From positions 2,490 through 37,697 of the forward strand of contig MFLV01000022.1 of assembly GCA_001781435.1 (NCBI GenBank): 35,208 nt of DNA, written 5' to 3'. Positions within the stretch are counted from its first letter, which is position 1; each line of letters starts with the position of its first letter. The notes beneath the pieces were generated by a model, which saw only the letters and a list, made by a program, of their open reading frames with translations, did not search any database and was not told the DNA's origin. The translations under genes were made by a program, and so were the position numbers. Shown here in pieces: positions 9,291-33,927 of the stretch. This DNA is from Candidatus Kaiserbacteria bacterium RIFCSPLOWO2_01_FULL_51_21 (GTDB lineage: Bacteria > Patescibacteriota > Minisyncoccia > Phycocordibacterales > 2-01-FULL-51-21).

Positions 9291-9495
9291 GTGAAGCCCC
9301 ACGGCTTTACAGCCGTGGCATCTTCACTTCAGGAACCCTCGGTTCCTGACGTTCTTCCCCAGTTTTGGAAAAGGAAATCCCCAAAACTGGGGAAGAACTG
9401 TTCTCCTCCACGGAGAAACTACAGTTTCCCCGACCCCCTTCGTCTCCCCTCGCGTTCAGCCACGGCCTTACGGCCGTGGCTCTCTGCGAGCTGAG
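9291..9495 (-). repeat. Hairpin-train repeat element, copy B (expanded)
   Basis: Termini GTGAAGCCCCACGGCTTTACAGCCGTGG and GCCACGGCCTTACGGCCGTGGCTCTCTGCGAGCTGA; interior perfect 18-bp stem GTTCTTCCCCAGTTTTGG/CCAAAACTGGGGAAGAAC plus smaller hairpins. Confidence 0.85.
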
Positions 9496-23873: not shown

Positions 23874-24010
23874 TCAACTCGCAGAAAGTCACGGCCGTGA
23901 GGCCGGATGAATGCGAGGAGAGAGGAAGGGGGAGGGGAGCCTCTGATTAGTGAGGGAAGCTCCCGAGGCAAAGCGTAGGTGGAACAGAGTAGTTTTCCCG
24001 TGGAGCTTCA
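23874..24010 (+). repeat. Hairpin-train repeat element, copy C
   Basis: TCAACTCGCAGAAAGTCACGGCCGTGAGGCCG ... CCGTGGAGCTTCA; aligns by eye with copy B. Confidence 0.75.
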
Positions 24011-24154
24011 TTGTTGGGGGTGTTAGAACAACAGGGAAGTGCGAATCCTTTTCTATCCGCAGAGTACCCCGCCGCTTGCGGCGGGAATAGGACGAGCGGA
24101 TTTTTATTTCTCTGATATACTGAAGTAAATTAAGAAGTTTAGGCATATAAGCAT

Positions 24155-27869: not shown

Positions 27870-30067
<2,198 letters not shown>

Positions 30068-32962: not shown

Positions 32963-33655
32963 ATGCCGATGTATCGAGCAGTAAATACTAATTTCTTCAA
33001 AAAGTGGTCACCGGAGATGGCCTATGTTCTCGGCTTTTTTGCCGCAGACGGCTCAATGCTTAAAAATAATCGCGGGGCGCATTTTATAGAATTTCATATT
33101 ACTGACCGAGAGCTTCTTTATGCTATTCGTGTCGCTCTTGGCTCAAATCATAAAATTGCCGTACGCGATCGTCACAATGAAAAATGGAAGATTGGGTACC
33201 GACTCCAGATTGGAAGCAAAGAAATCTACAGCGACTTAAAGCGACTAGGTTTCTCACAGGCGAAAAGTAAGACATTGCACTTCCCAGCAGTCCCAAAAAA
33301 ACACATTCGCCATTTTGTCCGAGGTTATTTTGATGGCGATGGAAATGTGTATTTCAAGCAGCATTGGGCGAAGGACCGAAATAAGATGAGATGGCATTTT
33401 ACCTCACGTTTTACTTGCGGGTCTCATCCATTTCTTATCTCACTTCTTGCTCTTCTTCGAAAGAATGGGGTAGAAGGAGGGTTCATCTTAAAGAAAGAGC
33501 GAGGGTATGAATTGGTTTTCAGTCATCGCGATAGCCTTGCACTATATGCATTGATGTATAATAATGTTTCCGGTAGTTTGTTTTTGAAGAGGAAGCACAA
33601 CATCTTCCAAAAAGCAATTGCTACCTTGTATCCAAAACCGCAGATGCGGCCGTAG
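32963..33655 (+). CDS. LAGLIDADG homing endonuclease (two-motif)
   Basis: YVLGFFAADGSM and HFVRGYFDGDGNVY are the two LAGLIDADG helices; stop TAG at 33653-33655 lies within the tRNA gene. Confidence 0.92.
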   Translation: MPMYRAVNTNFFKKWSPEMAYVLGFFAADGSMLKNNRGAHFIEFHITDRELLYAIRVALGSNHKIAVRDRHNEKWKIGYRLQIGSKEIYSDLKRLGFSQAKSKTLHFPAVPKKHIRHFVRGYFDGDGNVYFKQHWAKDRNKMRWHFTSRFTCGSHPFLISLLALLRKNGVEGGFILKKERGYELVFSHRDSLALYALMYNNVSGSLFLKRKHNIFQKAIATLYPKPQMRP

Positions 33656-33927
33656 CTCAACTGGTTAGAGCACTCGCCTGTAGACGTGCAGCTTTCTACC
33701 GAAAGGGTAGATTGAAACTCTCTGGGATAACGGTGAAGGCTAAATCTTTCGTATAAGACATGCGAACACCGTGGGAACCCCTCGTTAAGGAATGGGGGGG
33801 CGCCGTAGAGACTAGATACCGGAGCACCTAACAGTGAAAACTTATGGTGAAGATATAGTCCATGCCACTATGAAAATAGTGGGGAAGTGCACGCGAGAGG
33901 TTGCCGGTTCAAGCCCGGTCGGCCGCG
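33646..33927 (+). tRNA. Intron-containing tRNA-Asp(GUC); exons 33646-33681 and 33890-33927
   Basis: Joined exons: GCGGCCG-TA-GCTC-AACTGGTTA-GAGC-A-CTCGC-CTGTCAC-GCGAG-AGGTT-GCCGG-TTCAAGC-CCGGT-CGGCCGC-G; loop CUGUCAC and G73 are typical of bacterial tRNA-Asp. Confidence 0.88.
33682..33889 (+). ncRNA. Group I self-splicing intron (~208 nt) in the tRNA anticodon loop
   Basis: P1 CUGU|/GCAG with U.G at the 5' site; P2 CTACC-GAAA-GGGTAG; R/S elements GAGACTAGATACCGG and GAAGATATAGTCC forming P7 (GACUA/UAGUC); P8 CACC/GGTG; P9 CCACTAT-GAAA-ATAGTGG; terminal G at 33889. Confidence 0.92.

Follow-up and report, generated by a model that had tools for sequence, protein, structure and literature searches.

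The window analysed here is a stretch of 35,208 nt (G000:C22:2490-37697) from a genome of 629 kb, assembled in 28 contigs and 92% complete. Relatives carrying these repeats are almost all labelled Parcubacteria/Patescibacteria, and the genome very probably belongs to that group. The window carries a train of hairpins whose termini recur at two further loci. The question raised by this locus is whether the three copies, named A, B and C below, belong to a mobile element without a transposase gene of its own and, if so, which kind of enzyme moves it and what the structured sequence between its ends might be.

Three copies with common ends and their relatives in the genome

The proposal that three loci have their termini in common was borne out by motif searches. 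Left-end motif CTCGCAGARAGNCACGGC, searched with up to three mismatches allowed, has three matches in the window, all of them exact, at 9473-9490 (minus strand), 23878-23895 (plus) and 27985-28002 (plus). The chance expectation is 0.24 per window and three matches occurred in 0 of 100 shuffles. Right-end motif CCGTGGRGCTTCA is likewise matched exactly at all three loci, once in each and in the correct order, and the ends of A, B and C agree in order and register. Element extents were set by boundary alignment.

Copy C (9291-9494, minus strand) is a full element of 204 bp located 3' of TTTAC. Its 199 nt identical to a twin on another contig (G000:C11:75659-75865), with unrelated flanks beyond, indicate that the unit moves, or has moved, as a whole. 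The left end (9449-9494, minus) consists of an outer stem CTCGC/GCGAG, an internal loop AGAGAG/CTGAA and an inner stem CCACGGCC/GGCCGTGG, and corresponds to a left end of the IS200 type, with a hairpin followed by TGAATGCG-like sequence. It is followed by the interior, hereafter the core (9328-9448, minus), which comprises the GACGAAGGGGGTCGGGGAAAC hairpin (P2), GTGGAGGAGAACAG, a P3 hairpin and the P4 hairpin AGGAACCGAGGGTTCCT. P3 is predicted to fold into a perfect 18-bp stem (9351-9398, minus), and the perfect stems found at its place in other copies are unrelated to it in sequence. The right end (9291-9327, minus) reads GTGAAGATG-hairpin-GGCTTCAC. As single-stranded DNA the whole copy is predicted to fold with -69.6 kcal/mol (z = -12.4) into a left and a right hairpin with three inner hairpins between them, one of which is the 18-bp stem.

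Copy B (23874-24011, plus strand) is a truncated copy of 138 bp, 3' of TTAT, in which the left end and a degenerate start of the core are joined to the right tip CCCGTGGAGCTTCAT. The original prediction credited copy B with a CACGGC-type hairpin at each end and a perfect stem of 18 bp, a lettering that mixes the second and third loci; these structures are real, both CACGGC hairpins being intact, but they belong to the copy at 9291-9495, and the copy at 23874 retains only a decayed left hairpin, lacks the right CACGGC hairpin and folds with z = -3.2. Copy A (27981-28023, plus) measures 43 bp and is terminal-only (solo): as predicted, a single hairpin is joined directly to the left and the right outer flank. 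It occupies a site 3' of TTTAC within the 5' region of ligA. Over 27876-28055 a direct copy of AAAGTGGTGCGGG stands on either side of it and an inverted one, ATACCCCGCACCACTTT, lies upstream, an arrangement that resembles the layout of target copies at core loci described below. A terminal-only copy of a second subfamily, with the design of copy A and other sequences, is present at 24053-24117 (plus), where left end CTATCCGCAGAGTACCCCGCC is fused to right end GGCGGGAATAGGACGAGCGGATTTTTATT. Elsewhere in the window, a tmRNA gene (1-381, minus; Rfam 94.7 bits) is cut by the window edge, and a sub-threshold match to the group I intron family (33670-33882, plus; RF00028, 41.2 bits against a gathering threshold of 50) stands directly behind a LAGLIDADG-like ORF at 32963-33655.

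Searching the whole genome by pattern and with a 189-nt query led to the identification of further copies with conserved boundaries, which is contrary to the refuting outcome named in advance, a lack of additional copies or of boundary conservation. Six are full copies of about 186-205 bp (C11:4633, C11:75659, C15:10607, C15:19119, C23:1282 and C22:11780, the last being copy C), and no fewer than three are derivatives shortened by deletion (C5:33052 and copies A and B). The second subfamily, which has different hairpins around the same interior, is represented by full or partial copies on C4, C5, C11 and C14 and also by terminal-only copies. The core of copy B and that of the C5 copy meet the right tip at CCGTG(G). 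Because core and right end have this short sequence in common, both copies may have arisen by deletion at microhomology.

Ends of the IS200/IS605 type and their transposase partners

Copies in this genome follow TCTAC, TTTAC, TTCAC, GTTAC, TTAT, TTTAT or similar sequences and terminate in CTTCAC or CTTCAT, with subterminal imperfect hairpins at both ends. T(T/C)A(C/T) is present on their 5' side, right flanks are unrelated to left flanks, and there is no target duplication. The trait of classical DDE MITEs, terminal inverted repeats with a short target duplication of fixed length, is not seen in the window copies. Subterminal hairpins and a target tetranucleotide flanking the left end are features of IS200/IS605 elements (PMC6006769). 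The window elements agree with these: a hairpin lies near each end, a tetranucleotide precedes the left end on its 5' side, and the target is not duplicated. The assignment of the ends to the IS200 type is well supported. In contrast to IS200/IS605 elements, the window elements contain no transposase gene, and no canonical IS200 tnpA was found in their genome (92% complete).

Two relatives supply the missing partner, since the left end of the window elements equals the one that precedes tnpA in each of them. Taylorbacteria RIFCSPLOWO2_01_FULL_50_130 (MHSB) has a sister element in 11 copies, of which ten measure 202 bp and one 305 bp. Most of them follow TTTA, their right boundary falls exactly at GTTTAC, and there is no target duplication. 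A single Y1 transposase match (105 bits) is present in MHSB, and directly upstream of its tnpA (L195) we find the left end AATGACCCGCCAGAGCTCCCTGCGCTCCGCGCAGGGATGAATGGCGG (AATGACCCGCCAGAGCTCCCTGCG..CGCAGGGATGAATGGCGG), which over 48 nt has 85% identity with that of the gene-less copies. In the second relative (G074), which carries elements like those of the second subfamily, an IS200-type tnpA (L162) is preceded by CCGCAGAGTTCCCCGCCCCTTGGGGCGGGGATGAATGCGG (CCGCAGAGTTCCCCGCC..GGCGGGGATGAATGCGG), a motif present in the gene-less copies of G074 and in the second subfamily of the window's own genome. The fuzzy left-end motif gives 0.005 chance matches per shuffled locus. As to the right ends, the MHSB contig stops about 117 nt after tnpA, and the L162 right end terminates in TTCAT with a different hairpin. 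No match between right ends of tnpA-bearing and gene-less elements was made, so the link to the transposase comes from the left end; it is for that end that the suggested check for a TnpA with matching ends succeeded in both relatives. An AAAG-like foot and the complementarity between GTGAAG and CTTCAC hint at a possible pairing of guide tetranucleotides at the hairpin feet with the cleavage sites. No empty site could be shown in a relative of the same genus, the genomes being too diverged.

Our preferred reading, to which we assign a probability of about 0.74, is that A, B and C are non-autonomous elements of the IS200/IS605 type, similar to the palindrome-associated transposable elements (PATEs) of Haloquadratum, carrying the core as a separate passenger that enters by target copying and fold-back. 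The reaction would depend on a Y1/HUH transposase acting in trans. Binding to the subterminal hairpins of single-stranded DNA, this enzyme would cleave 3' of T(T/C)A(C/T) at the left boundary and after TTCA(C/T) at the right tip. The unit of 190-205 bp would then change place with no duplication of the target, and the core of about 75-100 nt would be carried along between the IS200-type ends. Movement by a Y1 enzyme is what we infer from the ends; the presence of any Y1 gene shows no association with the core among 98 relatives (17/25 core-positive against 42/73 core-negative genomes). Copy A would result from a deletion between the two similar end hairpins, and copy B would be a truncated copy. 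PATEs lacking their core, of which only the termini are left, have been described (PMC3119063), and the reading of copy A as a terminal-only derivative agrees with these. The window elements are also like PATEs in being too short for a transposase and in having near-terminal IS605-type palindromes, no target duplication and terminal-only core deletions (PMC3119063). They differ in being bacterial (Parcubacteria) and in having a conserved, structured core which also occurs solo at tRNA genes.

A structured core at tRNA genes and other gene ends

An exact-pattern search of the genome_contigs collection with the interior GGGTCGGGRAAACNNNNGTTTYCCCGTGGAGGAR located the core family at 97 loci. Nearly all are labelled Parcubacteria, Paceibacteria, Patescibacteria or Berkelbacteria, and a few only 'bacterium'; one contig labelled Polynucleobacter (L118, SSFP01000121) is probably misbinned Patescibacteria. 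The core is present in 25 of 98 relatives of the same order. Neither the viral contigs searched nor the Rfam covariance models (E <= 1) gave a core match, and a HEARO-type RNA was rejected as its identity on the latter ground. No published description of the core was found in the literature covered, bioRxiv and most subscription papers lying outside that coverage.

Alignment of the cores reveals invariant single-stranded stretches around an invariant P2 hairpin. P3 is optional and wholly different in sequence between copies with its pairing kept; a non-essential stem that is kept paired explains this, so that a special mechanism for P3 hypervariability is not needed. P4 shows compensatory changes: its positions 5, 7 and 8 pair in 40, 40 and 36 of 43 distinct arms, as against 30.9, 23.8 and 20.3 after shuffling of partners. 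Since palindromes can also be kept paired by template switches during replication (PMC8794818, PMC7202029), this covariation supports the hairpin but by itself is no proof of a functional RNA. Three loci (L042, L069, L078) form a core subfamily whose P4 loop contains an additional inserted hairpin (CACATCGGTAGATGATGTGCA...).

In 47 of the 97 loci the core is located directly behind an intact sense tRNA gene, at least 16 isotypes being represented, where about 0.5 such loci are expected (an estimate from tRNA density). At the remaining sites gene names were read from sequence alone. The core is found at the 3' end of rpsI (L041, L120, L123 and L029), at the 3' end of an L33-like ribosomal protein gene (L070, L090), and at the 5' ends of protein genes, namely glycosyltransferase-like starts (L036, L101), a metal-binding-domain-like start (L115) and murD (L025). 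Two of these copies are in the window's own genome: L029 (G000:C9:6815) at the rpsI-like 3' end and L025 (G000:C8:12511) at the murD-like 5' end, where two different versions of the gene start flank the core.

The loci have a common layout: the end of the target gene (F1), usually a terminator hairpin, an inverted copy of F1 (R), the core, a short tail and a second direct copy of the target end (F2). Direct target copies score 30 or more in 46 of 82 non-redundant loci, compared with 1.5% of mismatched pairs, and in 44 of 85 loci at least 13 of 15 positions of R are complementary to the upstream flank of the locus itself, compared with 0.1% of shuffled arms. In most cases F2 either has two neighbouring T-loop bases changed relative to F1 (TC becoming GA, or RA becoming TT) or contains AGCGAAGCG. 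At the inspected loci with such differences between the two copies (L050, L069, L101 and L115), R agrees with F1. Two units stand in tandem at L043. The spacing between target copies is always small and larger versions with cargo between them were not found; nor did the surroundings of the 97 loci yield a helper gene, recurring ORF clusters being either overlaps with the element or the tRNA, or ordinary neighbours. At L070, L090, L041 and L120 the C-terminal residues encoded by the two target copies agree fully or almost fully, and the codons show many synonymous differences, so that one copy probably derives from another lineage by horizontal transfer.

Nearly identical cores with arms matching different tRNAs occur within single genomes: Cys, Gln and Lys in FW305_bin.8, Asp, Tyr and Ile in Gw_Eff_bin_394, and Gly, His and Leu in WHONDRS bin.51. 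This implies that each arm is written from its target, during insertion or later, and is not passed on together with the core.

Origin of the core and alternative readings

We propose that the core inserts at a hairpin-bearing gene end with copying or duplication of that end, and that the inverted arm would be made by fold-back (template-switch) synthesis on the target. Insertion with target duplication and a fold-back arm is moderately supported. Template-switch repair of palindromes is a published process (PMC8794818, PMC7202029), and the perfect-palindrome arms seen in copies of the window's own genome (the right ends of L002 and L006 and the left end of L015) resemble its products and count for fold-back synthesis. 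Fold-back predicts an even decay of the whole inverted arm; several loci (e.g. L114) where only the 12-15 nt next to the core are still complementary, and L129, whose arm is poor despite 97% identical direct copies, count against it. In both subfamilies of the window's own genome the left end is shaped F1-hairpin-R and the right end F2-hairpin, as if a core had once inserted at the palindrome of an IS200 end and the composite had then moved.

Mobility of the core itself is what these comparisons point to. More tentatively, and at less than even odds, the core would be a new mobile, gene-less module of Parcubacteria, about 75-100 nt in length, that enters tRNA T loops and gene ends, preserves gene function by duplicating those ends and writes a target-specific inverted copy, and that IS200-type elements took up as a passenger. 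A published counterpart is SMR-A of Haloquadratum, a small mobile repeat which inserts into palindromes, among them those of IS605-type elements, and whose mode of mobilisation is not known there (PMC3119063). Both are gene-less, about 110 bp in size and inserted at palindromes. The core differs from SMR-A, however, in lacking inverted terminal repeats of its own, in residing mostly at tRNA T loops and gene ends and, where SMR-A makes no duplication, in having direct and inverted target copies.

Insertion into a T loop with reconstitution of the tRNA end is classical behaviour of integrases. A phage that integrates at a T loop provides an example (PMC1762012), and it may be asked whether the target end, hairpin and inverted arm are together a folded, attC-like recombination site for a tyrosine recombinase. 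The tandem array of units at L043 and the synonymously different gene ends flanking L070, L090 and L120 would fit such a site. A tyrosine recombinase is encoded in all 25 core-bearing genomes, but as 95 of the 98 genomes have one the association says nothing. The element is gene-less, an integrase gene is not linked to it and target-specific arms are rewritten within a genome, and we regard the integrase explanation as unlikely.

In a second alternative the core is a guide-like RNA, and its arm R, passed on with the core instead of being copied from the target, directs insertion at a complementary tRNA. At each locus R covers the junction and is complementary to the target present there, the core is structured with a covarying P4, and the 2-nt change or 9-nt insert in the second target copy spoils pairing with R, all of which speaks for such a guide. 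However, the near-identical cores with different tRNA-matched arms in one genome would then need an arm rewritten on arrival, and in a gene-family presence test reverse transcriptase, IS110 and TnpB genes were not associated with the core. Reverse transcriptases occur in 10/25 core-positive and 36/73 core-negative genomes, and IS110 genes show no association among the 98 relatives; the window's own genome has neither. Guidance by an inherited arm thus appears quite improbable. A discrete core transcript with its 5' end at NGGAAAGGGG, if found, would support an RNA intermediate.

For the window copies themselves, the hairpins could be REPs moved by the genome's own RAYT-like gene. REP/BIME sequences with RAYT (TnpA-REP; PMC2817692, PMC8266576) are, like the window elements, gene-less palindromic repeats moved, or presumed to be moved, by a Y1 enzyme, and the single-hairpin copies (copy A and the solo copies of subfamily 2) do look REP-like. 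The only Y1 gene of the genome (L001, G000:C27:15548-15850) is moreover of RAYT size (230 aa). Yet this gene is surrounded by different palindromes (ACTTGGAGGCTTAGCCTCCAAGT), several copies of which lie inside and around the ORF with the reading frame apparently intact, and its locus contains no matching left end. The window elements, by contrast, are units of about 190-205 bp with fixed asymmetric ends, do not match this locus, and have left ends like those that precede IS200-type tnpA in relatives. Mobilisation by RAYT is accordingly given little weight by us, and the earlier description of a REP- or MITE-like non-autonomous element is upheld in a form closer to PATE/IS200 than to REP/RAYT.

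Omega RNAs, the guide RNAs of TnpB, are placed directly before the right end of their elements. The structured interior has just such a placement and the ends are of the IS200/IS605 type, so that it might be taken for an omega RNA kept without its protein in the remnant of an IS605-type tnpB element. A Cas12f1-like/TnpB domain was detected in 2 of 41 genomes searched and not in the window's own, there is no Rfam match and no recurrent linked gene at the 97 loci, and IS200 ends are wholly absent from most core loci; this identity was rejected and is very improbable. Inheritance in place as a conserved cellular RNA or terminator gene, for which the conserved structure and the terminator hairpins at many loci might speak, is scarcely credible and already refuted for the two-ended copies by the twin of copy C, the 11 sharply bounded MHSB copies, the many tRNA isotypes and the target repeats.

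Under our preferred reading of PATE-like elements with a passenger core, the window copies add a new case from bacteria to a kind of IS200-derived element known from haloarchaea and now from the candidate phyla radiation, in which terminal-only relics are also produced as they are in haloarchaea. Recognition of the interior as a separate and far wider structured module, located mainly at tRNA genes, goes beyond what a reading of the window's letters could see, and to a specialist this module with its target-copied arms would come as the surprise. Should the core be mobile, it would have settled in tRNA genes of at least 16 isotypes and left them unbroken, with an arm matched to each target even where the cores are nearly the same, and its target-copying route of insertion would be one undescribed for gene-less bacterial elements in the papers found. 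In practical terms, many Parcubacteria genomes owe antisense tRNA ends, terminators and spurious ORFs to these repeats.
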